Source: Paracoccaceae bacterium (GTDB lineage: Bacteria; Pseudomonadota; Alphaproteobacteria; Rhodobacterales; Rhodobacteraceae). From it: a stretch of DNA of 13,615 bases. The notes under the pieces were generated by a model. That model did no database searches. It saw nothing but the letters and a program-made list of their open reading frames with translations, and was not told the DNA's origin. Below, piece by piece: positions 1-13,210 of the stretch. Location: contig DQCI01000180.1 in assembly GCA_003545125.1 (NCBI GenBank), forward strand, positions 14,496-28,110. The letters are read 5' to 3'. A program made the translations under genes and the position numbers. Every line of letters begins with the position of its first letter. Within the stretch, counting starts at the first letter, position 1.

Positions 1-486
1 GGCGCCGAAATCATGATCCGCACCGCAGGCTACACGGCACCGATCCGCGCATCCTGGCGGTTCACGAACCAGGCCAATGCGTTCCAGAACCTGATGGCGA
101 CGGTGAGCGTCTGCATGTGCGGCAGCGACGGCACCTTCGACAGCATGGGTGAGGGGATGATCGTCGATTTCGACGGCACGGTGATCGCGCAGGGCACCAC
201 CGGACGCGTCGACGAGATCATCACCGCCGAGCTGCGTCCCGATCTGATCCGCGAGGCGCGGCTGGGCTGGGGGGTCGAGAACAATATCTATCAACTCGGC
301 CACCGGGCTTACGTTGCGGTGAAAGGCGGCGCCGGCGATTGCCCCTATACCTTCATGCAGGATCTCGTGGCGGGGGACTATCGCCTGCCATGGGAAGACG
401 ATGTGAAGGTGACAGACGGAACCTCTTGCGGGTTTCCCGCGCCAACTCGTGTCTTTGGCGAGACCAGCTCGGAGGGCGGCATATGA
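1..486 (+). CDS. AmiE/AmiF-type aliphatic amidase or formamidase, C-terminal part
   Basis: This is the C-terminal 161 residues of a nitrilase-superfamily amidase; the reading frame is open from base 1, so the gene begins upstream. Enzymes of this family hydrolyse short aliphatic amides or formamide to ammonia and the acid in the cytoplasm. The first residues ([11 protein letters not shown]) line up with the GAELIVRCQGY segment that follows the catalytic cysteine of AmiE, so the Glu, Lys and Cys catalytic residues lie outside the window. Later landmarks are the strand [13 protein letters not shown] and the terminal [18 protein letters not shown] and CPYTFMQD segments, typical of the AmiE/AmiF tail. 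Its stop overlaps the biuH start by 4 bases (ATGA, 483-486), so it belongs to the same operon. The natural substrate cannot be told from this half; formamide or another simple amide is a guess. Confidence 0.85.
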
Positions 487-1166
487 GTTTTTCCCAGATC
501 CCCGCCGACCCCTACGCCTGGCCCTGGAACGGCGATTTCCGCCCCGAGAATACCGCGCTCGTCGTCATTGACATGCAGACCGACTTCTGCGGCCCCGGCG
601 GCTATGTTGACAGCATGGGCTACGACCTGAGCCTCACCCGCGCACCCATTGAGCCGATAAAGTCGGTGCTTGCAGCCGCCCGCGTCCATGGCCTCACCCT
701 GATCCACACCCGCGAGGGCCACCGCCCGGATCTCTCGGACCTGCCCGCCAACAAGCGTTGGCGCTCGCAGCAGATCGGGGCGGGGATCGGCGACCCGGGC
801 CCCTGCGGCATGATCCTCGTGCGCGGCGAGCCGGGCTGGGAAATCATCCCCGAGCTTGCCCCCGTCGAGGGGGAATTGGTGATCGACAAGCCGGGCAAGG
901 GCAGCTTCTGCGCCACCGACCTCGAACTTGTCCTGCGCACCCGCGGCATCGACAACCTGATCCTCACCGGCATCACTACGGATGTCTGCGTGCACACCAC
1001 CATGCGCGAAGCCAATGACCGTGGTTTCGAATGCCTCCTTCTGGAAGACTGCTGCGGCGCCACCAAGCTTGAAAACCACCTGGCCGCGCTTGACATGGTC
1101 AAGATGCAGGGCGGCGTTTTCGGCGCGGTGGCCAGTGCGGGCCAAGTGTTGGAGGCGCTGAAATGA
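483..1166 (+). CDS. biuH: Biuret amidohydrolase (isochorismatase-fold cysteine hydrolase)
   Basis: A 227-residue cytoplasmic hydrolase predicted to convert biuret to allophanate and ammonia. The isochorismatase-fold triad is visible as Asp30 (VVIDMQ), Lys136 (IDKPGKG) and Cys169 (TTDVCV). These sit at a constant offset of six from the Asp36/Lys142/Cys175 triad I recall for Rhizobium leguminosarum BiuH. Gln209 in KMQGG corresponds at the same offset to the BiuH substrate-contacting Gln215. Remembered BiuH segments such as [35 protein letters not shown] and [10 protein letters not shown] are almost unchanged, so this call is stronger than a family call. The ATG at 483 is chosen because it overlaps the upstream stop and has GGAGG at 471-475 with 7-base spacing; the frame is open further upstream but that part overlaps the amidase. 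It is followed by an ATGA overlap with the ABC ATPase. The product allophanate would feed AtzF, encoded on the other strand. Confidence 0.9.
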
Positions 1167-2704
1167 AAGACAGCGCCATCCCTCACATCGGTGGCAAGGC
1201 CATCGGGCTTGAAACCGTCGGCATGACCAAGCGCTTCGGGGCCCTGGCCGCCCTCGACGATGTCTCGATCAAGGTGAAGCCCGGTGAGTTTCATGCCCTC
1301 CTCGGCGAGAACGGCGCCGGCAAGTCGACCTTGGTGAAATGCATCATGGGGTTCTACCAGCCCACTTCGGGCGCCATCGTCGTCGACGGTGCCGAGACGC
1401 CAGTGCCCACCCCCGCCGCCGCCCGCGACATCGGGATCGGCATGGTCTACCAACATTTCACCCTGGTGCCTGCGTTGTCGGTGGCGGAGAACATGGTGAT
1501 CGCGCGGGGCGACGTTTCCACTGTGATCGATTGGAAGGCGGAACGGGCGCGGCTCGAGGATTTCATGGCACGGATGCCGTTCAACGTGCACTTGGAAGCC
1601 CCGGTCTCGCAACTCTCGGCGGGAGAAAAACAGAAACTCGAGATCCTGAAACAGCTCTATCTCGACCAGCACTTCCTGATCCTCGACGAACCCACATCTG
1701 TATTGACCCCGGACGAAGCCGAACAGGTGCTGGGGCTGGTGCGCGGAATGACCGAGGCGGGGGCGATCACCGTGCTGATGATCACCCACAAATTCCGCGA
1801 AGTGACCGCCTTTGCCGACAGCGTCAGCGTGTTAAGGCGCGGGCGTTTTGTCGGCGGCGGCAAGGTCGCCGAGATGTCGACCGACGAGATGTCGCATCTG
1901 ATGATCGGCGAGGCGGAGTTGCGGGCGCCCGAACCTCGGGCCGACGATGTCGAAAGCGACCGTGTGTTCGAACTGGCGGGTCTCTTCGTGGACAATGACG
2001 AAGGGGTGTCGGCCGTCGAAGCGGTCAACCTCAAGATCCGCGGCGGCGAAATTGTCGGGATCGCCGGCGTCTCGGGCAATGGCCAGACGGAACTCATGGA
2101 AGCGATCACCGGCCAGCGCGCGATGACCGATGGCCGGGTGTTCATCAACGGCGCGCCATTCGACGCTACACGGACCGACTACCGCAATTTCAAAATGTTC
2201 GGCCTTCCCGAAGAGCCGCTGAAGAACGCCGCCGTAAGGCGCATGAGCGTGGCCGAAAACATCGCCTTTCGCACCTTCGACCGGGCGCCGATGGCCAAAC
2301 TCGGATGGTGGCTGCGGCCCCCGGAGATGCGAAAGCGCGCCGCCGAACTCATCGACGCCTACCGAGTGAAGACTCCCTCGACCGAGGCCCCGATCGAGAC
2401 TCTTTCAGGCGGCAATGTGCAACGCGCGATCCTCGCACGCGAGCTTTCGGGAGATGTCGAGGTACTGGTGGTCGCCAATCCCTGTTTCGGGCTCGATTTC
2501 GTCTCCGTCGCCGAGATCCGCGCCCAGATCGTGGCGGCCCGCAACAATGGCGCCGCAGTGCTTCTCGTTTCGGAAGACCTCGACGAAGTGCTGGAGCTCT
2601 CGGACCGGGTCGCGGTCATGTCCGGAGGCCGGATCGACCACGTGATCCCGATCGCCGAAGCCGACCGCCAGACCATCGGCAAATTCATGGCAGGTCACCC
2701 ATGA
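1163..2704 (+). CDS. ABC transporter ATPase, tandem-domain nucleoside/simple-sugar type
   Basis: A 513-residue protein with two fused ABC ATPase domains, the architecture of RbsA/NupO-type importers that pair with BMP-family or sugar binding proteins. Domain 1 is canonical: Walker [10 protein letters not shown] (48-56), Q-loop near VYQHFT (95-100), signature LSAGEKQ (151-157), Walker B LILDEPT (172-178) and H-loop ITHK (207-210). Domain 2 is degenerate: its Walker [11 protein letters not shown] (302-311) lacks the P-loop lysine and Walker B reads [11 protein letters not shown], while the signature LSGGNVQ (414-420) is intact. This asymmetry is normal for the family. The start overlaps the biuH stop (ATGA) and has GGAGG 7 bases upstream; the stop overlaps the next start. 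No permease or binding protein is in the window, so they probably lie upstream. Context suggests import of a ureide, biuret-like compound or nucleobase; the substrate is inferred only. Confidence 0.93.
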
Positions 2705-3363
2705 TCCAGGTCAAGGCAGAGCCCTACCCCTACAGCTTCCCGCCGGGCCAGACCGCGCTCGTGGTGATCGACATGCAGCGCGATTTCGTGGAACCGGGTG
2801 GCTTCGGCGCCGCGCTCGGCAATGACGTCGCGCGATTGCAGGCCATCATCCCCACCACCGCAGCGCTGATCGGGCTGTTTCGCGACCGGAACTGGCTGGT
2901 GATCCATACCCGCGAAGCCCATCTTGCCGATCTGTCCGATTGTCCGCCCTCGAAAATCGCACGGGGAGACGCGAGCCCTCGGATCGGCAAGGCAGGCAGC
3001 ATGGGACGGCTCCTGGTGCGCGGAGAGCCCGGCAACCAGATTGTGCCGGATCTCGCACCCCTGCCCGGCGAATGGGAAATCGACAAGCCCGGCAAGGGCA
3101 TGTTCTGGTCCACCGGATTACACGAAGCGCTCCGGGGGATGGGGATCACCCACCTGGTTTTTGCCGGCGTCACCACCGAGGTTTGCGTTCAAACCTCGAT
3201 GCGCGAAGCCAATGACCGCGGCTATGAGGGCTTGCTCATCACCGATGCCACGGAAAGCTATTTTCCCGAATTCAAGGCAGCGACAATCGCAATGCTGACC
3301 GCCCAGGGCGGCATCGTCGGCTGGGCGGCGCCTTTCTCGGCGCTGAAGGAGGCCGTTGGATGA
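2701..3363 (+). CDS. Second isochorismatase-fold cysteine hydrolase, BiuH paralogue (possible triuret or other ureide hydrolase)
   Basis: A 220-residue cytoplasmic cysteine hydrolase related to the BiuH encoded 1.5 kb upstream. The triad is conserved as Asp24 (VVIDMQ), Lys129 (IDKPGKG) and Cys162 (TTEVCV). The BiuH glutamine is also kept (Gln202, TAQGG), as are LLVRGEPG and the [10 protein letters not shown] stretch after the cysteine. It differs where BiuH is most conserved: the loop [17 protein letters not shown] becomes [27 protein letters not shown] becomes GMFWSTGLH, and DCCGAT becomes DATESYF. The active-site chemistry is therefore retained but the substrate pocket is changed. A substrate larger than biuret is plausible; triuret hydrolase (TrtA) is a known close relative of BiuH, but I cannot tell from sequence alone. 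Start and stop both overlap neighbouring genes by four bases, so it is translated together with the ABC ATPase and atzG. Confidence 0.85.
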
Positions 3364-3554
3364 GCCGGTTCGATGCCGACAAGCTGATCGATGCCACCGG
3401 CCCGGCGGTGGACCTGCCCATAGCGGTCGGGCACCGCCCCGGCGTGGTCGTACATCTGGAAGCGGCCCATGAAGCGATGCAAAAGATGCGCGGCCTGACA
3501 CTCGATAGCCATGCCGAGCCCGCCCCGGTGTTTCGCCCGGACGAACAGACATGA
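3360..3554 (+). CDS. atzG: AtzG/HpxX-type small subunit (DUF4089, GatC-like)
   Basis: A 64-residue protein of the DUF4089 type. AtzG binds the amidase AtzE, forms a heterotetramer with it and is needed for its stability; it is a GatC-like remnant. Support comes from size, position immediately before the amidase gene, and shared landmarks: a first helix ([17 protein letters not shown]), a second helix ([15 protein letters not shown]), and a proline-rich tail ending [11 protein letters not shown], resembling the RPAPF-type tail of AtzG. The start at 3360 overlaps the previous stop (ATGA) and has a good ribosome site AAGGAGG at 3346-3352. Its stop in turn overlaps the atzE start. The homologue in purine catabolism is HpxX, so the name depends on the substrate of the partner. 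It has no membrane segment or signal peptide. Confidence 0.82.
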
Positions 3555-4933
3555 GCGCGGCCGAGATCACCACTGCCGTCACTTCCGGCGAGACCACGGC
3601 CCTGTCCGTGACCGAGGCGACGCTGGCGCGGATCGCCGAGCGCAATGGCGCTCTCAACGCCTTCACCGACATCACAGCCGAGCGCGCGCTGGCCAAGGCA
3701 GCCGCGGTTGATGCGGCGATCGCGTCGGGAGAGGATCCCGGGCCGCTCGCAGGCGTGCCTTTCGCGGTCAAGAACCTGTTCGATATCGAAGGGGTGACAA
3801 CGCGGGCCGGGTCCCGGATCAACCGCGACCTGCCTCCGGCCAGCTCTGACGCGACCCTGATCGCAAATCTCGAAGCGGCCGGTGCCGTGCTCGTGGGCGC
3901 ACTCAACATGGGCGAGTATGCCTACGATTTCACCGGCGAGAACGCCCATGACGGGGCCTCGGTCAACCCGCACGACTTGAGCCGTATGTCCGGTGGCTCC
4001 TCCGGCGGGGCGGGCAGCGCGGTGGCGGGCGGACTGGTGCCCCTGGCGCTGGGATCCGACACCAACGGTTCGATCAGGGTGCCATCATCCTTTTGCGGCA
4101 TCTTCGGGCTCAAACCCACCTACGGGCGGCTCTCGCGCAGCGGGAGTTTCCCCTTCGTTGCGAGCCTCGATCATCTCGGTCCTTTCGCGCGCAGCGTGGC
4201 CGACCTCGCGCTCGCCTATGACGTGATGCAAGGGGCCGACCAGAGCGATCCCGCCCAGACGCCGCGACCCGTTGAGCGCTGCTCGGACAGGATCGACGCT
4301 GGGGCGACGGGTCTCAGGATCGCCCGTCTCGGCGACTACTTCACCAAAGGCGCGGGGGAAGCGGCGCTGAGCGCGCTCGACGCGGTCTCGGCGGCGCTCG
4401 ATGTGACCCGTGACATCGCCCTGTCCCATGCGGGCGAGGTTCGCTCCGCCGCTTATCTCATCACTATGGCCGAAAGCGGCGCGCTGCACCGCGAAACTCT
4501 CAAAACCCGCGCGGACGACTATGACCAAGACGTGCGCGACCGTCTGCTTGCCGGTGCGCTCCTGCCCGCCGAATGGGTCGTCACGGCGCAAAAGGTCCGA
4601 CGGGCCTTTGCTCAAGAGATGGTCGAAGTGTTTCGGAAGGTGGATGTGCTGCTCGCCCCCGCCACGCCCTGCACCGCCCCGAAACTGGGGGAGAAATGGC
4701 TCAATCTCGGCGGCGACCCGGTGCCGCTTCGCCCGAATATCGGCGTCTTCACCCAGCCGATTTCGGCCATCGGCCTGCCGGTGGTCGCGGTCCCGGTCTG
4801 GCCGAAAGGCTCGGCGCTGCCGATCGGCATACAGGTGATAGCCCCGCCGTGGCGGGAGGATCTCGCGCTTCGCGTGGCCCGGCACCTCGAACGCCTCGGC
4901 ACAGTTGCCTCGCCGATGGCCGGAGGGAGCTGA
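3551..4933 (+). CDS. atzE: AtzE/HpxY-type amidase (1-carboxybiuret hydrolase or oxalurate-pathway amidase)
   Basis: A 460-residue amidase-signature enzyme. The Lys-cisSer-Ser triad is visible as Lys74 (FAVKNLFD), Ser150 (MSGGSSGG) and Ser174 (SDTNGSIRVPSS); the 24-residue spacing of the two serines matches the family. The motif FCGIFGLKPTYGR follows, and the C-terminal domain ends normally, so the gene looks intact. AtzE deaminates 1-carboxybiuret, the cyanuric acid ring-opening product, to 1,3-dicarboxyurea. The homologue HpxY is linked to oxalurate breakdown in purine use. The upstream DUF4089 subunit and the downstream DUF3225 gene fit either system; allophanate hydrolase nearby favours the carboxybiuret reading. 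The start is fixed by the ATGA overlap with atzG. A GatA-type role is unlikely because the partner gene is DUF4089-like and gatB is absent. Confidence 0.85.
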   Translation: MSAAEITTAVTSGETTALSVTEATLARIAERNGALNAFTDITAERALAKAAAVDAAIASGEDPGPLAGVPFAVKNLFDIEGVTTRAGSRINRDLPPASSDATLIANLEAAGAVLVGALNMGEYAYDFTGENAHDGASVNPHDLSRMSGGSSGGAGSAVAGGLVPLALGSDTNGSIRVPSSFCGIFGLKPTYGRLSRSGSFPFVASLDHLGPFARSVADLALAYDVMQGADQSDPAQTPRPVERCSDRIDAGATGLRIARLGDYFTKGAGEAALSALDAVSAALDVTRDIALSHAGEVRSAAYLITMAESGALHRETLKTRADDYDQDVRDRLLAGALLPAEWVVTAQKVRRAFAQEMVEVFRKVDVLLAPATPCTAPKLGEKWLNLGGDPVPLRPNIGVFTQPISAIGLPVVAVPVWPKGSALPIGIQVIAPPWREDLALRVARHLERLGTVASPMAGGS

Positions 4934-4936
4934 GCC

Positions 4937-5698
4937 ATGGAGAACAAGGGGCGTTGGTCGGGGCGCAACACCGGCAAGGATCGGGTACGCGGCGAGGTGT
5001 GGGACAGGCTCGATGCGGGCGGCTACGCGATGGGGCCCACCTGGAGCCACATCCCGAATTTCATCGGCGCCGACCAGGCCGCCTGGCATCTCGCCCAGAC
5101 CCCGGAATGGCAGGCCGCGCGGGTCGTCAAATGCAATCCCGACCCGCCGCAGATCCCGGTGCGGCTGCGTGCACTCTACGAGGGCAAAACGCTTTTCGCG
5201 CCGGTGCCCTATCTGACGAAAGACTTTCCCTACCTTCGGATCGATCCCGAATCGCTTGCGAAAAAGGGCGTGAGCTTCGAACTCGCCGCCACGTCCGAAG
5301 GCTATCTCATCCATGGCGAGCGTATCGGCTTCGAAGACGTGGAACCGCTCGATTTCTGCGTCGTCGGATCGGTCGCCGTGGGGCGCGTTGGCGGGCGCAC
5401 CGGCAAGGGCGCCGGCTTCGCGGATCTGGAGACGGGCATTTTCCGCGCGCTCGGCAAGGTTGGGCCTGACACGGTGCTCGCGACCACGGTGCATTCGAGC
5501 CAGCTTGTCGATGACGCGAAGGTGGTGATCGAGGCGCATGACAATCCGCTCGACTACATCGCCACCGAACAACGGCTGATCGTCACCGGCAACACCGACC
5601 CCAGACCCGCAGGCGTCACATGGGATGCGGTGCGCGAGGACCAGTATGAAACCATCCCGTTCCTGCGCGCGCTGCGCGGGCGGATGGAAGACGGCTGA
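4937..5698 (+). CDS. 5-formyltetrahydrofolate cyclo-ligase-like protein (5-FCL paralogue, COG0212 type)
   Basis: A 253-residue soluble protein of the 5-formyltetrahydrofolate cyclo-ligase superfamily. The N-terminal basic helix KDRVRGEVWDRL (14-25) matches the family start, and the ATP/folate loop appears as GRTGKGAGFADLE (153-165), where true cyclo-ligases have a GxRxGxGGGYYD-like loop. The Tyr-Tyr pair is replaced by Phe-Ala and the protein is longer than the roughly 180-200 residues of housekeeping enzymes. It therefore resembles the 5-FCL-like paralogues for which a cryptic link to thiamin metabolism has been proposed. Start: ATG three bases after the atzE stop with GGAGGGAG at 4922-4929. 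It overlaps atzH by one base. Being wedged between atzE and atzH suggests an accessory role in the same pathway, perhaps ATP-dependent handling or repair of an N-carboxy or N-formyl intermediate; this is speculation. Confidence 0.82.
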   Translation: MENKGRWSGRNTGKDRVRGEVWDRLDAGGYAMGPTWSHIPNFIGADQAAWHLAQTPEWQAARVVKCNPDPPQIPVRLRALYEGKTLFAPVPYLTKDFPYLRIDPESLAKKGVSFELAATSEGYLIHGERIGFEDVEPLDFCVVGSVAVGRVGGRTGKGAGFADLETGIFRALGKVGPDTVLATTVHSSQLVDDAKVVIEAHDNPLDYIATEQRLIVTGNTDPRPAGVTWDAVREDQYETIPFLRALRGRMEDG

Positions 5699-6081
5699 TG
5701 GAAATCGACCGTCCAGACGTACTCGCCGAAGTCGAGGCGGTCTTTGCCGCCTACGAAGCCGCGCTGGTCGGCAACGACGTGGCCACGCTCGACGGGCTGT
5801 TCTGGCAGGATGCGCGGGTGATCCGCTACGGCATCTCGGAGAACCTCCATGGGGCGGGCGAGATCCTCGCCTTTCGCAAGGCGCGCCCCTCGAAAGGACT
5901 GGCCCGCCGACTCTCGCACACCACGATCACGACATTCGGCCAGGATTATGCGACCGCTTCAACGTTGTTCCGCCGCGACGAGTCGCCCAACAAGGTGGGA
6001 CGACAGATGCAAACCTGGGTGCGGCTGCCCGAAGGCTGGCGGGTGGTCGCTGCGCATGTGTCGATCATCGACGCGCCCTGA
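5698..6081 (+). CDS. atzH: AtzH/HpxZ-type protein (DUF3225, NTF2-like fold)
   Basis: A 127-residue NTF2/SnoaL-like protein of the DUF3225 family. The features are an N-terminal helix (DVLAEVEAVFAAYEAALV), the strand-turn LFWQDARVIRYGISENLHG (35-52), AFRKAR (58-63), and the terminal strands QTWVRLPEGWRVVAAHVSII. As I recall, AtzH from Pseudomonas sp. ADP is a decarboxylating amidohydrolase that turns 1,3-dicarboxyurea into allophanate; HpxZ in the oxalurate cluster belongs to the same family. The genes for AtzG, AtzE and AtzH therefore lie in one operon, interrupted only by the 5-FCL-like gene. The start overlaps the upstream stop (TGATG) with GGAAG seven bases before it. Its stop lies three bases from the stop of atzF on the other strand, so this is the last gene of the left operon. 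Confidence 0.85.
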   Translation: MEIDRPDVLAEVEAVFAAYEAALVGNDVATLDGLFWQDARVIRYGISENLHGAGEILAFRKARPSKGLARRLSHTTITTFGQDYATASTLFRRDESPNKVGRQMQTWVRLPEGWRVVAAHVSIIDAP

Positions 6082-6084
6082 AGT

Positions 6085-7866
6085 TCAGCGGCGCGCCATG
6101 TAGCCCCGCCATCCGCCGAACGAGGTGATCTCTTCCGCCCCCTCAAGCGCACGGGGTTCGCACAGGAATCCGCTGACCGTTGAACCATCCTGCAAGCTCA
6201 GCTTACCGATCCCGAGCGGCGCCGGGATGTTCGCAACGAACCGCCCGAAAGCGGCGGCCGGCAGCGCCCAGACTTCGACCTCGATCCCGTCCCCCGCGTA
6301 CCCTGGTTCGGCAATCAGCCCGGGTTTCGCCGGCGTGGTGTCGGGCAGCGCGTAGAGCCGGTAGCCGGGCGAAGTTGTCGTGGCACGAAGCAAAACGCCG
6401 CCTGGGTCGGTCAGCTGCGTGTTCAACGCCATCCCCGACAGATGCGCGCCGACCACCGCAATCTCCACCCAACCGGCGGGACAGTCCGGCAAAGGTGCTG
6501 CGGGCAGCGGCGCGCCCCGGTCGCGCCCGATTCCGCATTGGGCTGCCGCATGCAGCGCCCCGGCGAGAGGCGCGAGGGCGTCGTCGCAAAAGCCGGGACC
6601 GATGAGAGTTACACCGGCGGGCAGGCCCGAGGGTCCGAACCCGGCAGGCACCGCAATCGCCGCGAGCCCGAGCAAATTCACGAAATTGGTGTAGCGGCCG
6701 AATTCGCTGTTGCGGATGATCGGCTCGGCCCGCATGTCCTCGACCGTGCAGGTGGTGGGCGACGTCGGCAGCAACAGCGCATCGACGGCATCCCAGACCG
6801 GAGCCACCTGTTGCCGGATCTCGTTCAATCGGTAGAGCCCGTTGAACGCATCGACAGCCGAGTAACCGTCGGCGGCCGCGATGATTGCGCGCACAGTCGG
6901 GTCGAAATCGGCTTGGTTGGTCGCAAAGAAGCGCTCGACCGCCGCCAGCCGTTCGGCGACCCAAGGCCCTTCATAGAGTAGCGCCGCCGCCTCGCGGAAA
7001 GGGGCGTAGTCAAAAGGCACAATGGTGGCCCCGAGCGCCTCGGCCCGCACCATCGCCGCGTCATAGGCGGCCTCGACCTCGGTGTTGCCGAAGAATTCGC
7101 GCTCTGCCCCGTCCAACACACCGATGCGCGGCCGGGGCGGCAAAGCCACCGGTGCGGCGGGCCGCGAAAACGGGTCGTCCGGGTCATACCCGTCCATCAC
7201 CCGGCGGATGGCCACGCCGTCGCCGACCGAACCCGCGAAAACCGTCACCACATCGACAGACCGGCAGGCAGGGACGACTCCCGTGTTCGGCACGAGGCCC
7301 GGCGTCGGTTTGATCCCGACAAGATTGTTGAAGGCCGCAGGCACACGGCCGGACCCCGCGGTATCGGTACCGAGCGCGAAGGTGCAAAGCCCCGAGGCCA
7401 CCGCGACGGCCGAACCCGAGGAGGAGCCGCCGGACACATAGGCGGAGTTGAAGACCGAACGCGGCGCCCCATGCGGCGAGCGCGTGCCATTCAATCCGGT
7501 CGCGAACTGGTCGAGATTTGTCTTGCCGATCACGATGGCACCAGCCGCGCGCAGCCGCGCGACGACCGTCGCATCCGCTGCAGCCTCATAGGCATAGGCC
7601 GGGCAGGCTGCGGTCGTCGGGAGACCGGCGACATCGATGTTGTCTTTCACTGCGAACGGCACACCCCAGAGCGGCAGATCGCGCGGCATTTCCATCACCG
7701 CCCCGGCCGCTACACGCAATACGTCGTCCGCCACCTGGCAGATGAAAACCGCCGGGTCCGCGCAGGCGGTGCGGCGCGCGATCACCTCTTCGATCACGTC
7801 GAGCGGTGTTGCACCCTCGTCGTAGGCCGCCCGGAGCGCGTCCAGTGTCATCATTTTGGACAGCAT
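6085..7866 (-). CDS. atzF: Allophanate hydrolase
   Basis: A 593-residue two-domain enzyme that hydrolyses allophanate (urea-1-carboxylate) to ammonia and CO2, the final step of biuret and s-triazine breakdown. The N-terminal amidase domain carries Lys74 (FAVKDNID), Ser148 (VSGGSSSG) and Ser172 (GTDTAGSGRVPAA); these spacings (74 and 24) equal those of the Lys91/Ser165/Ser189 triad recalled for Pseudomonas AtzF. FNNLVGIKPTPGLVPNTGVVP is also diagnostic. The C-terminal domain (from about residue 440) ends in GFLCEPRALEGAEEITSFGG, the conserved allophanate hydrolase tail, and in other AtzF proteins handles the carboxylated intermediate. There is no fused biotin-dependent urea carboxylase. The ATG at 7866 is chosen because AAGGAGG lies just upstream (7871-7877); the frame stays open further up but that part looks non-conserved. 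It is preceded by a 211-base gap and may have its own promoter. Confidence 0.93.
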   Translation of the reverse strand: MLSKMMTLDALRAAYDEGATPLDVIEEVIARRTACADPAVFICQVADDVLRVAAGAVMEMPRDLPLWGVPFAVKDNIDVAGLPTTAACPAYAYEAAADATVVARLRAAGAIVIGKTNLDQFATGLNGTRSPHGAPRSVFNSAYVSGGSSSGSAVAVASGLCTFALGTDTAGSGRVPAAFNNLVGIKPTPGLVPNTGVVPACRSVDVVTVFAGSVGDGVAIRRVMDGYDPDDPFSRPAAPVALPPRPRIGVLDGAEREFFGNTEVEAAYDAAMVRAEALGATIVPFDYAPFREAAALLYEGPWVAERLAAVERFFATNQADFDPTVRAIIAAADGYSAVDAFNGLYRLNEIRQQVAPVWDAVDALLLPTSPTTCTVEDMRAEPIIRNSEFGRYTNFVNLLGLAAIAVPAGFGPSGLPAGVTLIGPGFCDDALAPLAGALHAAAQCGIGRDRGAPLPAAPLPDCPAGWVEIAVVGAHLSGMALNTQLTDPGGVLLRATTTSPGYRLYALPDTTPAKPGLIAEPGYAGDGIEVEVWALPAAAFGRFVANIPAPLGIGKLSLQDGSTVSGFLCEPRALEGAEEITSFGGWRGYMARR

Positions 7867-8077
7867 CGCCCCTCCTTCCGTCGCGCGTTTCGGGGTGATA
7901 CCGCCGCGCCACTCCAACGACCCCAAATGGTAACGCGGGGCCGGCAGGCTCGAAACCTGTTCCCGGCGCTCGGCGAACCTCCCTCGCCCGCGGACGGCAA
8001 AAGCCTGTTTCGCGAGCAGCCAAACAGAATTCTGCCGTAGAATTTGCCTCCTCGATGATCGCGTCCGAGGCCCAAAT
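7867..8077 (-). other. Intergenic gap between the carbamoylase gene and atzF
   Basis: This is the longest non-coding stretch inside the right operon (211 bases). I see no conserved reading frame in it. Near its start, in transcript order, AATTCT and AGAATT form a six-base dyad around ACGGC, and CAGAATTCTG (8025-8034) is itself a ten-base palindrome. Neither is followed by a T-run, so neither is a convincing terminator. TACCAT is the best -10-like word upstream of atzF but has no good -35 partner. The gap may hold a separate atzF promoter or an RNA processing site; the sequence does not decide. Confidence 0.4.
7871..7877 (-). promoter_or_regulatory. Strong Shine-Dalgarno site of atzF
   Basis: Read on the minus strand this is AAGGAGG, a full match to the anti-16S sequence, followed by GGCG and the ATG at 7866-7864. 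It settles the atzF start against the upstream in-frame extension and against the two later ATG codons (residues 5 and 6), which are too far from it. The spacing of four bases is a little short. Confidence 0.75.
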
Positions 8078-8992
8078 TCAATCGGGGTCGGCCGCCGTGA
8101 TCACTGCATAGTCCTCCGGCGCGCGATGCAGGGCGAAATTGAACACATTCGCCCGGATCTCGGCGCATCGGTCGAGATCGACTTCGGCGGTAATCACCTC
8201 GTCGCCGCTGCCCGCCGAACGAGCGAGGATTTCACCCGTCGGCGCGACGATGAGGCTGCCACCTATCAGTTCGCTGCCCTCCTCGAGCCCGGCCTTGGCT
8301 ACCGCGACAGCCCACAGCCCGTTCTGGTAGCATCCGGCCTGAACCGACAACTCGTTGTGGAAGTATTGCAGGTGATCATGTTCCGGCGCCGGCGGGTAGT
8401 GTGCAGGAGTGTTGTAGCCCAGCACAACCAGTTCGGCGCCGCCCAGGCCGAGGACACGCCAGGTCTCCGGCCAGCGCCGGTCGTTGCAGATGCACATGCC
8501 GAGCTTGCCGCCCAGGGCGTCAAACACCGGAAACCCGAGATTCCCTTTCTGGAAATAGCGCTTCTCGAGGTGCTGGAAAGGTCGCCAGGTCTCGTTGTCG
8601 CGATGTCCCGGAAGGTGGATCTTGCGGTATTTGCCCAAGATCGCGCCCTCGGGGGAAACCAGGATCGCCGTGTTGTAATGCGCGCCCTCCGGGGTGCGCT
8701 CGGCATAGCCGAGATGGAAGCCCAAGCCCAGTTCGGCGGCGAGATCGAACAAAGGGCGGACCGTGTCGTTGGGCATTTCGGTTTCGAACCAGGTATCGAC
8801 CTCGGACTGGTCCTCCATGAACCAGCGCGGAAAGAACGTGGTCAACGCCAGTTCCGGGAACACCACCAACGCCGCGCCCCGGGCATGGGCGGTGCGCATC
8901 ATGGCGCACATCCGGTCGACCGCGGAGCTGCGCGGCTCCGCCTTGGCGATCGGCCCGAGCTGGGCTGCGGCGGCAATGAACTTCCGGCTCAT
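8078..8992 (-). CDS. N-carbamoyl-D-amino acid hydrolase-like nitrilase-superfamily enzyme (D-carbamoylase)
   Basis: A 304-residue nitrilase-superfamily amidohydrolase, the same length as Agrobacterium D-carbamoylase, which removes the carbamoyl group of N-carbamoyl-D-amino acids to give the amino acid, ammonia and CO2. The catalytic triad is visible as Glu47 (VVFPELALTTFFPRW), Lys124 (KYRKIHLPGH) and Cys169 (CICNDRRWPE). RPFQHLEKRYF, the histidine-rich YNTPAHYPPAPEHDH loop, and LSVQAGCYQNG are closely conserved with that enzyme, so the family call is strong. The loop before the lysine is three residues shorter. The ATG at 8992 overlaps the dpaL stop by four bases and has an AAGGGAG-like site upstream. 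No hydantoinase gene is in the window, so the carbamoyl substrate may be imported or made elsewhere. Co-translation with dpaL suggests its product is the DpaL substrate or a similar amino acid. Confidence 0.88.
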   Translation of the reverse strand: MSRKFIAAAAQLGPIAKAEPRSSAVDRMCAMMRTAHARGAALVVFPELALTTFFPRWFMEDQSEVDTWFETEMPNDTVRPLFDLAAELGLGFHLGYAERTPEGAHYNTAILVSPEGAILGKYRKIHLPGHRDNETWRPFQHLEKRYFQKGNLGFPVFDALGGKLGMCICNDRRWPETWRVLGLGGAELVVLGYNTPAHYPPAPEHDHLQYFHNELSVQAGCYQNGLWAVAVAKAGLEEGSELIGGSLIVAPTGEILARSAGSGDEVITAEVDLDRCAEIRANVFNFALHRAPEDYAVITAADPD

Positions 8993-10242
8993 TCGCGCGC
9001 TCCCTTGCCTGCACCGCGAACAGCCCCGGCCGGGAGACCCACCAGCTCTTCGTAGAGCGCCGGGTCGGTATCGCCTTCGGTTCCGAACACCACGACCCGC
9101 GAAGCGGCGTCGAGCCCGAGGATACGCCGGGCCTCGTCGTCGCCCAATGCCGCGTCCAGCCCCGCCAGTCCGGCGACGGCGGATTCGCCCGCAACGATGG
9201 CCGGATCATCGGCCACAGGGTCGGCAAGCCGGCGCATCGCGGCGACCGCCGAGGCATCGCTCAGCGCCATGACCACGTCCGCGTGATCGACCAGCACCTC
9301 CCAGGCGAGGGCAGAAACCTCTCCGCAGGCCAGCCCCGCCATCAGCGTGTCGAGATCGCCCTCGACGGGCGTCGGCGCGCCGGATCGGAAAGACGCAAGC
9401 CAGCATGCCGAAAGGTCCGGGTCGCACAGCACGATGGTCGGGCGCCCGTCACCCCAGCGGCGCACGGCCTGGGCCGTGACCGATGCCGCCATACCGCCGA
9501 CGCCGGTTTGCAGGAAAACATGGGTGGGGACCTCGTCGAGCGCATCGAAGGCTTCGGCGGCCATGACCTCATAGCCCTGCATCACGTCTTTCGGCACCTC
9601 CATGTAGCCGTCGTAGGAGGTATCCGAGACCACGAACCAGCCCTCGCGGGTCGCGGTTTCCTGCGCCGTCCGTACGCTGTCGTCATAGTTGCCCGGACAA
9701 CGGCGAACCTCGGCGCCATAGGCTTCGATCGCGGCTTTGCGGGCCGCTGACACAGTGGCGTGGATGAAGATCACGCATCGGCAACCGAAGGTCATCGCGC
9801 CCCAGGCGACCGATCGCCCGTGATTGCCGTCGGTCGCGCAGCAGACCGTGATCGCGCCGGCTTCGCCGGGGAACGCGCGCGACGTGATCTCGTCGATGGT
9901 GACCGGATGACCAAGCCCGCGCCCGAGCTGCGCCTGCAACAGCCGGGCCACGGCGTAGGCGCCACCGAGCGCCTTGAAACTGCCGAGCCCGAAACGACCG
10001 CCCTCATCCTTGTAAGACAGCGCGGCGATGCCGAGTTCCGACGCCAGCCCGGGCAAGGCGACAAGCGGGGTTTCCGCGTAGCCCGGCCATGCACCGATCG
10101 CGGCGCGCGCGGCGGCGAAGCCCTCATCGCTCAGGATATGGTTCTGCGCGGCGGTCCAGGGCGCATCCCTGCGGGCGCGTGTGTTGACTGCGAGGGTAAA
10201 ACCCTCGGGCGTGCCGGGGTTTCGTGAGATTTCTTTGGTCAT
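8989..10242 (-). CDS. dpaL: Diaminopropionate ammonia-lyase (PLP-dependent)
   Basis: A 417-residue fold-type II PLP enzyme that converts 2,3-diaminopropionate (and in some members D-serine) to pyruvate and ammonia. The Schiff-base lysine is Lys90 in RFGLGSFKALGGAYAV, matching RFGLNAFKMLGGAYA of E. coli YgeX. ATDGNHGR (136-143) contains Asp138, equivalent to the catalytic aspartate of that family; DTSYDGYMEVPKD and the TGVGGMAA phosphate-binding loop follow. The start is uncertain. The ATG at 10242 gives a family-like N terminus but its upstream bases are pyrimidine-rich (ACCTCCTCCC) with no Shine-Dalgarno site. A GTG at 10299 is in frame but lies in the loop of a hairpin. The stop overlaps the carbamoylase start. 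In E. coli ygeX also sits among ureide-metabolism genes (ygeW, hyuA, yqeA), which supports a role in degrading carbamoylated or purine-derived compounds. Confidence 0.9.
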   Translation of the reverse strand: MTKEISRNPGTPEGFTLAVNTRARRDAPWTAAQNHILSDEGFAAARAAIGAWPGYAETPLVALPGLASELGIAALSYKDEGGRFGLGSFKALGGAYAVARLLQAQLGRGLGHPVTIDEITSRAFPGEAGAITVCCATDGNHGRSVAWGAMTFGCRCVIFIHATVSAARKAAIEAYGAEVRRCPGNYDDSVRTAQETATREGWFVVSDTSYDGYMEVPKDVMQGYEVMAAEAFDALDEVPTHVFLQTGVGGMAASVTAQAVRRWGDGRPTIVLCDPDLSACWLASFRSGAPTPVEGDLDTLMAGLACGEVSALAWEVLVDHADVVMALSDASAVAAMRRLADPVADDPAIVAGESAVAGLAGLDAALGDDEARRILGLDAASRVVVFGTEGDTDPALYEELVGLPAGAVRGAGKGARE

Positions 10243-10280
10243 GGGAGGAGGTACTCGACAGATTGCGCCCGGTGTGGGCA

Positions 10281-10310
10281 GGAACCGGGCGACTTGCACC
10301 GCCCGGTTCC
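10281..10310 (-). repeat. Perfect 11-bp inverted repeat after dctP
   Basis: GGAACCGGGCG (10281-10291) and CGCCCGGTTCC (10300-10310) are exact reverse complements around an eight-base loop, giving a very stable GC-rich stem about ten bases after the dctP stop. There is no T-run on either side, so it is not a standard intrinsic terminator. In TRAP and ABC operons a stem-loop after the binding-protein gene commonly protects its mRNA and lowers read-through, so that binding protein exceeds downstream enzymes; that role is inferred here. Downstream genes dpaL to atzF probably depend on read-through. Confidence 0.7.
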
Positions 10311-10320
10311 CGTGTTGCGA

Positions 10321-11358
10321 TCAGAAGCCGGTCTTTTCTTCGTCGATCGAAGTCAGCATGGCTTCGAGCATAGCGGTGCCTTTTTCCCCGTATTGCGCCT
10401 CGATCAGGGCGCGCACCGCCGGCTGTGCGGCGGCCGCGAACTTGGCTTGTTCTTCGGGCGTGACCACGTTGACCTCCATGCCTTCCGCCAGCGCCGGCAG
10501 GCCTTTGTCGGAGGCTTCGATGACCCGGCTCATCGCCCGGCCAGTGTCGGTGGCGACGGAAGCGGCCCAGGACACGAGGTACTGATCTTCCGCGCTCAAC
10601 CCGTCATAGAACGCCGGGCTCATCGTCCAGATGTAGGGCGTGATCAGGTGGTTGGTGATCGACAGGTATTTCTGCACCTCGTCGAACTTGGCGAAAGCGA
10701 TGATCGGCACCGGGTTCATCTGACCGTCGGCCACGCCGGTCTGCAGCGCGGTATAGACCTCGGCCCAGGGCAGCGGGGTCGGTTGACCGCCGAGCGAGGT
10801 GATGATCGCTTCATGGGTGGGCAGCGTCATGGTCCGGATGCGCTGTTCTTCCATGTCCGCCACCGATGTGATCGGTGCCTTGGAAGAGGTGAAGGCGAAG
10901 AACCCGCCGGAATCGATCAGGCCGAGCACCTTGAGATCGGTCTCGGCTTCCAGATCCGAGACAAAAGCTTCGCCGAAGGACGACTCCTTCGTGATCACCT
11001 CGGAGGCGACACCGATGTTGGGGAAAGCGAAGGGGATGTCGAACACACCCACCAGCGGGTAGTGCTGGGCCATGCCGCCCGACGACGAGATCGCGCTTTC
11101 AACGAGGCCGGCGCGGACCTGGTCGATCACTTCGTTGTCCTTGCCGAGCTGACCGTTGGGGAAGAGCTGCACCTCGATGCGGCCGTTGGAATTCGATTCG
11201 ACGAGTGATTTGAACACCGACGACATTGCGCCGGAATGGCTGGCGAACGGGTCTTCGGGGTTCAGATGGGCGAGCCGGATCGTGATGTCGGCGGCATTGG
11301 CCTGCGCGGCCATCACCAGACCGGCAAGAGCCATCGAGGCGGATTTCATGAACGACAT
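10321..11358 (-). CDS. dctP: TRAP transporter periplasmic solute-binding protein, DctP family
   Basis: A 345-residue periplasmic binding protein. A signal peptide is clear: MSFMKSASMALAGLVMAAQ followed by the cleavage site ANA|AD after residue 22. The mature part begins ITIRLAHLNPEDPFA, the usual DctP opening. It contains RIRTM with Arg175 at the position of the arginine that binds a carboxylate in DctP proteins, then PLPWAEVYTALQTGVADGQMNP, the family hallmark segment. The ligand is therefore probably an organic acid or a carbamoylated amino acid with a carboxylate; context favours the latter. The ATG at 11358 has AAGGAAA seven bases upstream and is required for the signal peptide, so the longer open frame is not used. 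It lies 35 bases after dctM. Q-M-P gene order differs from the common P-Q-M order. Confidence 0.93.
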   Translation of the reverse strand: MSFMKSASMALAGLVMAAQANAADITIRLAHLNPEDPFASHSGAMSSVFKSLVESNSNGRIEVQLFPNGQLGKDNEVIDQVRAGLVESAISSSGGMAQHYPLVGVFDIPFAFPNIGVASEVITKESSFGEAFVSDLEAETDLKVLGLIDSGGFFAFTSSKAPITSVADMEEQRIRTMTLPTHEAIITSLGGQPTPLPWAEVYTALQTGVADGQMNPVPIIAFAKFDEVQKYLSITNHLITPYIWTMSPAFYDGLSAEDQYLVSWAASVATDTGRAMSRVIEASDKGLPALAEGMEVNVVTPEEQAKFAAAAQPAVRALIEAQYGEKGTAMLEAMLTSIDEEKTGF

Positions 11359-11393
11359 AGGATTTCCTTTGCTTGTGGAACGTGCTCGGTGGG

Positions 11394-12680
11394 TCAAAGC
11401 CCGAGCAACCGGGGAACGAAAAGGGTGAGGTCGGGCCAGTAGGCGATGAGCAACAGGATCGCGACTTCGGCGATGATGAAGGGCCACAGCTCGCGTGTGA
11501 TCGCTTCGACACTCTCGCCAGTGACCGAGGACAGGACGAACAGGCAGGCACCGACCGGCGGTGTCATCAGCGAGATGTTGAGGGCGAGGATGATCATGAT
11601 CCCCGCGTGCACCGGCTCCATGCCGATCTGCAGCGTGAGCGGCGCGAGAACAGGAGCCAGGATGATCAGCGTTGCGTTGATGTCCATGACCAGGCCGATC
11701 AGCAAGAGCAGCACCAGGATCAACCCGATGATCACCCGTGGGTCGTCGGAGACCGCCAGCATGGCTTGGGCGATGTCCTGGGGGATGCGGTTGTAGGTCA
11801 TCCACCACCCGAGGATCGAGGCCGAAGCGATGATGAGGAAGATCACCCCGGTGATCCGGGTGGTGCGCACGGCGATCTCGTACAGGTCAGGCCAGCTGAG
11901 CGCGCGGTAGATCACCCCGCCCACGAACAATGCATAGGCCACGGCGATGGCGGCGGCCTCGGTGGGGGTGGCGAAACCGCCGAGGATCGAGCCGAGGACG
12001 AAAACCGGCAGAAGGGCGGCCAGGAAGCCTTCGCGCAACGCGGTCCAGACGACCCTGAAGCTGGGTCGCCCGGTGCCGCCCGGCAAATTCTTGCGCTTGG
12101 CCTGGAAGGCGATGACGCCCATGCCGATGAACGCGATCAGCAATCCCGGGAGAATACCCGCGGCGAACAATCCGGCGATGGAAACGCCCATGATCGAGCC
12201 ATAGATGATCGCGAGCGTCGACGGCGGGATCGTCGGGCCGATGATCGAACCCGCGGCGGTGACGGCGGTGGCATAGGCGCGCGAATAGCCGGCCTTCTGC
12301 ATTGCCGGCACCAGCGTGTTGCCGAAGGCCGCCGCGTCGGCCGTCGCCGCGCCAGTGATGCCTGCGAACATCACCGAGGCCACCATGTTCGAATGCGCCA
12401 TGCCGCCGCGCATCCAGCCGACAAGCGCATTCGCAAGCCGTACCAGCCCTTCGGTGATGCCGGAGCGGTTCATGATCTCGCCGGCGAGGATGAAGAACGG
12501 CATGGCCAGGAAGGGGAACAGGTCGAGCCCGGCGAACACCCGATCGGGGGCCATGGTCAGGAACCTCGGCCCCATGTCGAGTATCCCGATCACGCCGGCG
12601 ACACCGATGGAAAAGCCGACCGGCATACCCAGCGCCAGCAGTCCAAAGAAGGCGACGGCAACAAGAAGCGTTCCCATCAT
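11394..12680 (-). CDS. dctM: TRAP transporter large permease, DctM family
   Basis: A 428-residue inner-membrane protein of the DctM family with about 12 hydrophobic segments, the normal length. It begins MMGTLLVAVAFFGLLALGMP, and has the family segments FPFLAMPFFILAGEIMNRSG, GGMAHSNMVASVMFAGITG and SIIGPTIPPSTLAIIYG, and ends with a membrane helix near LIAYWPDLTLFVP. It forms the sodium-coupled translocation channel with DctQ. The start overlaps the dctQ stop by four bases (12677-12680), and two adjacent ATG codons are available; GGGAG precedes them by five bases. The substrate is not determined by this subunit. Confidence 0.95.
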   Translation of the reverse strand: MMGTLLVAVAFFGLLALGMPVGFSIGVAGVIGILDMGPRFLTMAPDRVFAGLDLFPFLAMPFFILAGEIMNRSGITEGLVRLANALVGWMRGGMAHSNMVASVMFAGITGAATADAAAFGNTLVPAMQKAGYSRAYATAVTAAGSIIGPTIPPSTLAIIYGSIMGVSIAGLFAAGILPGLLIAFIGMGVIAFQAKRKNLPGGTGRPSFRVVWTALREGFLAALLPVFVLGSILGGFATPTEAAAIAVAYALFVGGVIYRALSWPDLYEIAVRTTRITGVIFLIIASASILGWWMTYNRIPQDIAQAMLAVSDDPRVIIGLILVLLLLIGLVMDINATLIILAPVLAPLTLQIGMEPVHAGIMIILALNISLMTPPVGACLFVLSSVTGESVEAITRELWPFIIAEVAILLLIAYWPDLTLFVPRLLGL

Positions 12681-13210
12681 TCGTCTCCCATCGGAGCGAG
12701 CGTGGAGCCGGTTGCGCGCGGGGCACGCTCGGCGAAATAGTCGTGGATCCCGATCAGAACGAGTTGCAGGCTCGCCAGTCCTGCGGCCAGGGGCACCCCG
12801 ATGAACGGATACCCCTTCGGGATCGCGTAGATCATCGTCAGCCGCGAAAACCCGCGGGCCGCAAAACCGATCCCGTAGATGAAGAGAATGAGAAAGAACG
12901 CAAGGGCGATCACGTCAAAGCTGACAGCCAGCCATCGGCGCAACCGCGGCGGCAAGCGGGTAAACACGAATTCGACGCCGATATGCTCGCGGTGTGCGAT
13001 GCCGGAGGACACCGCCAGCAACGCCATCCAGATCATCAGGTACCGCGCGAGTTCTTCCGTGAAAGTCAGCGGCAGCGGGATGACGTAACGCACCAGAACG
13101 CCGAGCCATACATCCAAGACGAGCAACACGAGCAGCCCCACGGTGAACCGCTCAACGAGCCAGTTGACCTTGAGGCTCCAGTGCCTGGCTTTGACGGCGA
13201 TGCTGTTCAC
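12677..13210 (-). CDS. dctQ: TRAP transporter small permease, DctQ family
   Basis: A 177-residue inner-membrane protein with four predicted hydrophobic segments: around FTVGLLVLLVLDVWLGVLV, LARYLMIWMALLAVSSGIA, FDVIALAFFLILFIYGIGF and FIGVPLAAGLASLQLVLIG. The segment TFTEELARYLMIWMALL and the following HREHIGVEF are typical of DctQ. The best start is GTG at 13210, since no in-frame ATG occurs before the second membrane segment; GGGGGA lies eight bases upstream as a weak ribosome site. It is the first gene of the right operon and faces the divergent RpiR regulator across about 100 bases. Confidence 0.92.
   Translation of the reverse strand: MNSIAVKARHWSLKVNWLVERFTVGLLVLLVLDVWLGVLVRYVIPLPLTFTEELARYLMIWMALLAVSSGIAHREHIGVEFVFTRLPPRLRRWLAVSFDVIALAFFLILFIYGIGFAARGFSRLTMIYAIPKGYPFIGVPLAAGLASLQLVLIGIHDYFAERAPRATGSTLAPMGDE

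Follow-up and report, generated by a model that had tools for sequence, protein, structure and literature searches.

What supplies carboxybiuret to an AtzGEH module that lies in an operon with no cyanuric acid hydrolase nearby? The question is raised by a stretch of 13,615 nucleotides from a Paracoccaceae bacterium (here termed the window; bases 14496-28110 of contig C136, which measures 28.9 kb and belongs to a draft genome of 4.35 Mb in 343 contigs, 88.95% complete), where genes for two isochorismatase-fold hydrolases, open reading frame (ORF) A and ORF B, are found together with atzG, atzE and atzH. On the grounds of homology, diagnostic residues and phylogeny, ORF B is assigned here as the triuret hydrolase TrtA, while homology and phylogeny identify ORF A as the biuret hydrolase BiuH. 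The operon as a whole quite probably imports and mineralises triuret via TrtA, AtzEG, AtzH and AtzF, with BiuH acting on biuret. As operons combining TrtA, BiuH and AtzF are already published (PMC7948467), the new part is the presence of AtzGEH in a triuret operon.

The reading frame of ORF B (2701-3363) is open throughout and encodes 220 amino acids. The product shares 65% identity with TrtA of Herbaspirillum sp. BH-1 (PDB 6xix; E 2e-91), as compared to an E value of 4e-49 for BiuH (PDB 6azo), and aligns with the former without gaps, such that TrtA residue numbering can be transferred to ORF B. Twelve of the 13 catalytic or selectivity residues checked are of the TrtA type, namely, Asp24, Phe29, Phe35, Asn41, Glu72, Lys129, Lys132, Glu160, Cys162, Tyr187, Gln202 and Ile205. 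These include the complete catalytic triad (Asp24, Lys129 and Cys162) together with Gln202, and five of the six positions that determine selectivity (F35, N41, E160, Y187 and I205). At the sixth, residue 134, ORF B contains Met, where TrtA has Ala and BiuH has Ser; an A134S mutant of TrtA is reported to be neutral (PMC7948467). The triad, Gln202 and five of six TrtA-versus-BiuH positions are thus what ORF B has in common with the structurally characterised Herbaspirillum enzyme (PDB 6XIX, 6XJE and 6XJ4; PMC7948467).

In a tree that included characterised TrtA, two BiuH proteins and RutB, ORF B fell within a TrtA clade of 20 rows (support 100/98) and, within this, in a ten-row clade with 6xix (96/91), while ORF A grouped with BiuH (85/86). 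Long RutB branches at the root were flagged by the program but were judged not to affect placement of ORF B. In agreement, ORF B scored below the equivalog cut-offs for both BiuH (228 bits vs. 370) and RutB (89 bits vs. 378). Relative to BiuH of Rhizobium leguminosarum 3841 (PDB 6AZO; PMC5806882), ORF A belongs to the same family, whereas ORF B presents the same fold and triad yet lies outside the BiuH group. A sequence-only reading of the window had described two hydrolases with a common triad and Gln that differ in the substrate loop, and had suggested that ORF B could be a triuret hydrolase. The Asp-Lys-Cys triad and the Gln are indeed present in both proteins, and the loop difference is borne out, with F35 and N41 in ORF B facing Tyr and Tyr in ORF A, and the suggestion gains from both the tree, where ORF B sits with characterised TrtA rather than with BiuH or RutB, and the retained TrtA selectivity residues.

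The genes of the window that form or adjoin the operon are as follows.

1..486, plus strand: 3' portion of a formamidase gene (top-scoring model NF009803, 251 bits, matched at positions 185-332 of 333).
483..1166, plus strand: biuH (ORF A), biuret hydrolase (NF050097, 418 bits, cut-off 370; PDB 6azo, E 9e-122; tree).
1163..2704, plus strand: ATP-binding cassette (ABC) transporter ATPase gene (an ORF whose cluster is found in 74 of 80 related TrtA loci).
2701..3363, plus strand: trtA (ORF B), triuret hydrolase, isochorismatase-like cysteine hydrolase (PDB 6xix, E 2e-91; residues; tree).
3360..3554, plus strand: atzG, AtzEG small subunit (PF13318, 38.9 bits, cut-off 24).
3551..4933, plus strand: atzE, 1-carboxybiuret hydrolase-type amidase (TIGR02715, 679 bits, cut-off 426; PDB 6c62, E 8e-141).
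4937..5698, plus strand: 5-formyltetrahydrofolate (5-formyl-THF) cyclo-ligase-like gene (PF01812, 60.7 bits, cut-off 27).
5698..6081, plus strand: atzH (DUF3225), probable dicarboxyurea decarboxylase (PF11533, 193 bits; nine of nine modelled pocket residues, including Arg66).
6085..7926, minus strand: atzF, allophanate hydrolase, convergent (TIGR02713, 768 bits, cut-off 511).

The profile matches thus confirm that AtzE, AtzG and AtzH, as recognised in the sequence-only reading, are all present. From biuH to atzH, adjacent genes overlap by 1-4 bases, the sole exception being atzE and the cyclo-ligase-like gene, which are 3 bases apart. Further upstream on the contig, and in the same direction as the operon, lie genes for a BMP-type binding protein (PF02608) and two permeases (PF02653), and the ABC ATPase gene is presumed to be part of this BMP-type importer. 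Judging from the importer genes alone, the importer would take up triuret. TrtA would then release a terminal ammonia to yield 1-carboxybiuret, from which AtzEG would remove a second ammonia to give 1,3-dicarboxyurea, to be decarboxylated by AtzH to allophanate, with breakdown being completed by AtzF. BiuH would take biuret that is either imported or formed by spontaneous loss of CO2 from carboxybiuret. That AtzGEH would act on the TrtA product is proposed because of gene linkage, the published action of the module on that compound in the degradation of cyanuric acid, and the manner in which residue 66 of AtzH tracks the presence of AtzE, as detailed below. Counted in favour of this pathway are the trtA-atzG, atzG-atzE and cyclo-ligase-atzH gene overlaps, as well as the fact that AtzE of pADP-1, an enzyme acting on carboxybiuret, clusters with TrtA-linked copies.

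To consider linkage, the neighbourhoods of the 80 nearest TrtA loci (the best 80 of at least 573 relatives) were surveyed, with flanks being fetched up to 10 kb a side, although some stretches were short. BiuH was found in 70 of the 80 loci and AtzE (at least 44% identity) in 27, in 11 of these immediately 3' of trtA, the arrangement also found in the window, and in 16 upstream, most of the latter being from beta-proteobacteria. The count was then restricted to the 58 loci whose sequence extends 9.9 kb or more upstream of trtA and 4 kb or more downstream (22 of the 80, with short flanks, being excluded). Among these, BiuH was present in 55, a BMP protein in 56, AtzF in 35, formamidase in 23 and the cyclo-ligase-like gene in eight. 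An AtzH-family gene was found no more than 2.5 kb downstream of trtA, with no AtzE in the fetched stretch, in 24 of the 80 loci. Both Herbaspirillum loci (L022 and L042) are among these and hence, unlike the window, which has both genes, contain an AtzH-like gene but no AtzE.

A sample that did not start from TrtA was also drawn, consisting of 299 genomes taken evenly from the family of Ramlibacter monticola (genome G037), presumably the Burkholderiaceae, with AtzE of pADP-1 serving as query. AtzE was detected at E ≤1e-140 in 67 of the 299 genomes. TrtA (E ≤1e-70) was found in 54 of these 67, as compared to seven of 80 genomes lacking AtzE (Fisher P 7e-20, uncorrected for kinship); the 80 controls were searched out of 232, 20 being listed and 60 chosen by consecutive numbering in the same draw. 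In 48 of the 67 genomes, AtzE is encoded within 20 kb of trtA; in none is it farther away on the same contig, in six it is on another contig and 13 genomes have no TrtA. AtzD scored above the family cut-off in ten of the 67 genomes, and by hand count 41 of the 48 genomes with trtA-linked AtzE have no AtzD match. The earlier proposal of a role for AtzEGH outside s-triazine breakdown thus finds backing in a sample chosen independently of TrtA.

Attention was next given to AtzH, for which a pocket modelled with 1,3-dicarboxyurea comprises Tyr22, Arg46, Arg63, Arg66, Arg73, Phe94, Arg96, Gln106 and Gln108 (PMC6219798). All nine residues, including Tyr22, Arg46 and Arg66, are retained in AtzH of the window. 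In a set of 112 distinct sequences, all 83 copies that have AtzE within 3 kb carry Arg at position 66, whereas none of the 26 copies without AtzE does; the latter have Cys (15), Thr (three), Gln (two), Ala (two), Ser, Leu, Tyr and Val (one each). The AtzH-like protein of the Herbaspirillum loci has Cys66. The 83 copies derive from 53 loci chosen for AtzE, ten plasmid loci found likewise, 19 TrtA loci and the window, while 24 of the 26 are flanked on either side by 3 kb of sequence or more, L020 and L043 being the two with less. Three copies with AtzE more than 3 kb away were left out, namely, that of L019, with Arg, and those of L015 and L016, both distant AtzH relatives, with Val. Restricting the comparison to the TrtA loci and the window likewise revealed Arg66 in 20 of 20 copies with AtzE. 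Arg96 is present in 82 of the 83 AtzE-associated copies, as opposed to nine of the 26 others. When a tree was built without columns 66 and 96, Arg66 and the presence of AtzE each changed five times and at the same places, because the two characters are identical over the 109 rows.

The simplest reading of this pattern is that AtzH accompanied by AtzE meets a dicarboxylate, whereas AtzH without AtzE would meet the monocarboxylate carboxybiuret, and would thus correspond to TrtB, the carboxybiuret decarboxylase named in PMC7948467. Accepting, as we infer, that TrtB is AtzH-like, the 26 AtzH copies without AtzE may be TrtB. Like the proposed AtzEG of the window, TrtB acts on the product of TrtA; the probable TrtB proteins here are AtzH-family members that lack Arg66 and come from loci without AtzE, whereas AtzH of the window contains Arg66. 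Taken together, membership of ORF B in the TrtA clade, linkage of AtzE to trtA and an AtzH with Arg66 suggest that the carboxybiuret released by TrtA probably passes to AtzEG for deamination and then to AtzH, whose decarboxylation step would yield allophanate. Mutual exclusion of AtzE (22 loci) and the TrtB-like AtzH clade (14 loci) was also considered, there being zero co-occurrence in the 58 full-flank loci (Fisher P 4e-4). This was not relied on, since the TrtB-like clade is close to a single origin and an independent-pairs test was not significant.

Several observations weigh against a triuret pathway that passes through AtzGEH. Of the five coinciding changes in the AtzH tree, branches with strong support require just one, which is not enough for a sign test. 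Kinship limits the Arg66 statistics, and Arg66 mutants are absent from those AtzH mutants reported as impaired (PMC6219798). In a phylum-wide draw, where AtzE or HpxY was detected in 36 of 398 genomes, a TrtA-like gene lies within 20 kb in seven of the 36, the window included; three of these seven are at 59% identity or more, one being the window itself. In family f31, of the same class as the window, none of 11 cases is linked on one contig within 20 kb, with all 11 having a TrtA-like protein of 53-55% identity. Given so few linked cases, the connection between AtzE and trtA depends on lineage. AtzE of the window is, moreover, 51% identical to AtzE of pADP-1 and 50% identical to HpxY of Klebsiella, and the 28 columns that separate pADP-1-type AtzE from HpxY are split in the window (15 ADP-like, ten HpxY-like and three other). 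Finally, BiuH by itself could complete a triuret pathway.

The source of carboxybiuret in the best-known setting of the module, cyanuric acid hydrolase (AtzD/TrzD), was found neither in the vicinity of the operon, as had been noted from the sequence, nor elsewhere on the 28.9-kb contig or in the rest of the draft genome. The AtzD family model gave zero matches in this genome, incomplete and fragmented as it is, and AtzD of pADP-1 as query gave zero matches on the window's contig; as a positive control, the model matched pADP-1 and nine others of 41 records. Among the 80 nearest TrtA loci, AtzD lies within the fetched stretch in eight. In L014, L018 (observed from two contig ends), L019 and L035, four of the 11 loci where AtzE directly follows trtA, AtzD is encoded between biuH and the ABC gene. 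Accordingly, this operon type has acquired or lost AtzD while TrtA and AtzE were retained, and the same downstream gene set receives carboxybiuret there.

The alternatives were then weighed. Rather unlikely, in our estimate, is that AtzGEH is an oxalurate module (HpxXYZ) that merely lies beside triuret genes, in which AtzE would cut the ureido group of oxalurate and AtzH would decarboxylate N-carboxyoxamate, a two-step scheme put forward in the present analysis. The Klebsiella (L089) and Serratia (L096) loci and the 11 GGT-linked loci of hpx type in family f72 (L119-L129) indeed contain a homologous three-gene set, the NCBIfam label for AtzH of the window is HpxZ, and two HpxZ proteins checked contain the same nine pocket residues. 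The AtzE columns, divided as they are, leave room for this reading, and purine-type genes stand near the operon. Yet GGT lies beside AtzE in all 11 f72 loci, as well as in Serratia and Acidithiobacillus loci, with a partial GGT match in L089, whereas no GGT match was obtained on the window's contig (the rest of the genome was not searched for GGT). TrtA does not adjoin the HpxXYZ loci, and a TrtA-like protein was detected in only one of the 11 f72 genomes, at 53% identity. In the AtzE tree, the Klebsiella and Serratia HpxY proteins are set apart on a branch of their own (100/100). Finally, the trtA overlap and the AtzD genes within sister operons favour carboxybiuret as the substrate.

It is also unlikely that BiuH provides the only working branch, with carboxybiuret decarboxylating spontaneously, BiuH taking the resulting biuret and AtzGEH serving another ureido substrate. 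Consistent with such a scheme, carboxybiuret has a half-life of some 20 min (PMC7948467), no AtzE was seen in the fetched stretch, in some cases short, of 53 of the 80 nearest TrtA loci, and AtzGEH is found near other isochorismatases and ABC transporters too. On the other hand, AtzE tracks TrtA over 299 genomes of one family, and the presence of an AtzH-family gene near trtA in 24 of the 80 loci, with no AtzE seen, suggests an enzymatic fate for carboxybiuret rather than spontaneous decay. Very unlikely is that ORF B acts on a related small ureide such as formylurea, the second-best but very poor TrtA substrate (0.3% of triuret; PMC7948467). The formamidase and formyl-THF cyclo-ligase-like genes of the operon would fit such a substrate, but ORF B matches TrtA at 12 of the 13 catalytic or selectivity residues and is 65% identical to it.

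With conversion of triuret via AtzGEH thus the preferred reading, the relation of the window to the atzDGEHF operon of pADP-1 (PMC6219798) was considered. The two share the atzG-atzE-atzH order, the nine AtzH pocket residues and AtzF. They differ in that the window presents TrtA instead of AtzD as the source of carboxybiuret, has BiuH and the cyclo-ligase-like gene in addition, and includes importer genes in the operon. The sequence of PDB 6c62 is identical to AtzE of pADP-1 throughout the stretch compared. In a tree that is TrtA-rich by design, this AtzE groups with seven copies linked to TrtA and one linked to AtzD (support 100/100). AtzH of pADP-1 is found beside the corresponding AtzH copies with modest support and, in a larger tree, beside AtzD-linked AtzH. 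In the unbiased set, 31 AtzE proteins share 65% identity or more with the pADP-1 enzyme, 21 being TrtA-linked and ten coming from genomes without a TrtA match. The closest (79%) is TrtA-linked, while the next (77%) has AtzD upstream and no TrtA. It is therefore likely but not proven that pADP-1 recruited its AtzE module from a mainly triuret-linked family, the alternative being recruitment from an older AtzD-linked copy.

As to where triuret comes from, the operon could be part of an enzymatic purine-to-triuret route in which triuret would arise by dioxygenase cleavage of an oxidised purine, for instance urate, although we regard this as quite unlikely. Triuret corresponds to the atoms of urate minus C5 and C6. 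In three of the closest relatives, an 8-oxoguanine deaminase (L008, 606 bits; L009, 619 bits; L011, 627 bits; cut-off 532) and a 2-oxoglutarate (2OG)-Fe(II) dioxygenase are encoded directly upstream of the importer and in the same direction, while L010 has the deaminase (626 bits) with no dioxygenase in line. L009 belongs to Hoeflea alexandrii DSM 16655, a cultured relative that has the same operon. On the window's contig, the gene for a related dioxygenase runs on the opposite strand and comes second upstream of the importer genes, after an oxidoreductase gene; farther away lies a deaminase gene from a neighbouring family. Also counted for such a route is the kinship (E 1e-40) of the BMP-type binding protein upstream of the window with AtzT (PDB 6pi5), which binds guanine (PMC6834077). 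Lack of a urate pathway was tried as support for the dioxygenase route and rejected, with urate oxidase being detected in 15 of 15 genomes tested (PF06181 in 13, PF01014 in two). Since all have this ordinary enzyme, the purine route stays speculation; if true, it would supply the still-missing biological source of triuret. The 2OG-Fe(II) dioxygenase genes beside importer-trtA operons include L006:8972-10614 and L008:991-3249. Elsewhere, L006:4849-6222 encodes an amidohydrolase, beside two more dioxygenases and a TauA/SsuA-type importer, and this group is probably a second, separate heterocycle operon. The nearest PDB entry to the amidohydrolase is 2paj, which we take to be an isoxanthopterin deaminase.

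Other features of the region are of lesser bearing. The formamidase gene is split by 59 N, reflecting an assembly gap or masking, just before the window, with the upstream part at L006:13979-14495; its score is below the NF009803 cut-off (406 bits) because the gene is given in part only. The cyclo-ligase-like protein reached 20 bits with the MTHFS equivalog model, for which the cut-off is 85, and its gene sits between trtA and atzH in L013 and L017 as well, where atzE is absent. A minus-strand group at window positions 8078-13210 contains nitrilase and diaminopropionate ammonia-lyase-like genes, according to profile matches, and genes that, judged from ORFs alone, resemble a tripartite ATP-independent periplasmic (TRAP) transporter, and is probably unrelated. 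A sigma-54 (nitrogen-type) site was matched once in L006, with two mismatches, at 6261, which is not ahead of the importer genes, about three such matches being expected by chance; no sigma-70-like site was found within L006:10400-10800.

Related loci offered further observations. In L059 (10659-11000) and L068 (10684-11142), both without AtzH, a small ChrR/cupin-like gene that might encode another decarboxylase or a regulator lies directly 3' of trtA; the ORF cluster holding the L059 copy spans nine loci. An entire atzF-importer-formamidase-biuH-trtA cassette, with IS1 genes on both sides, is found on an IncR plasmid of Enterobacter hormaechei (L097), and TrtA of the same 64.8% identity is also listed on Klebsiella and Citrobacter plasmids. 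In two AtzGE clusters, a gene of about 530 codons annotated as 'regulator' is found between the isochorismatase gene and atzF or atzG (L091:5334-6935 and L092:7199-8782).

Clusters of atzGEH in beta-proteobacteria, with genes for allophanate hydrolase, ABC transporters and amidases on their flanks, have been described (PMC6219798), a layout also seen in L071 and L080. Triuret genes of nitrifiers have been discussed alongside purine breakdown (PMC12625717). No statement that atzGEH serves triuret was found in the accessible portion of the literature on triuret, bacteria and AtzE, a search that most subscription journals lay outside. With most AtzE genes in one large family lying near trtA (48 of 67), the module would have a natural source of substrate, which suggests that AtzGEH, although familiar mainly from the degradation of herbicides, did not originate as a herbicide-degrading set. 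It further suggests that the atrazine plasmid drew its module from a family mostly serving triuret. As such, AtzE in a genome should not be counted as a sign of triazine breakdown, and Arg66 of AtzH offers a testable single-residue marker for the two alternative fates of carboxybiuret.

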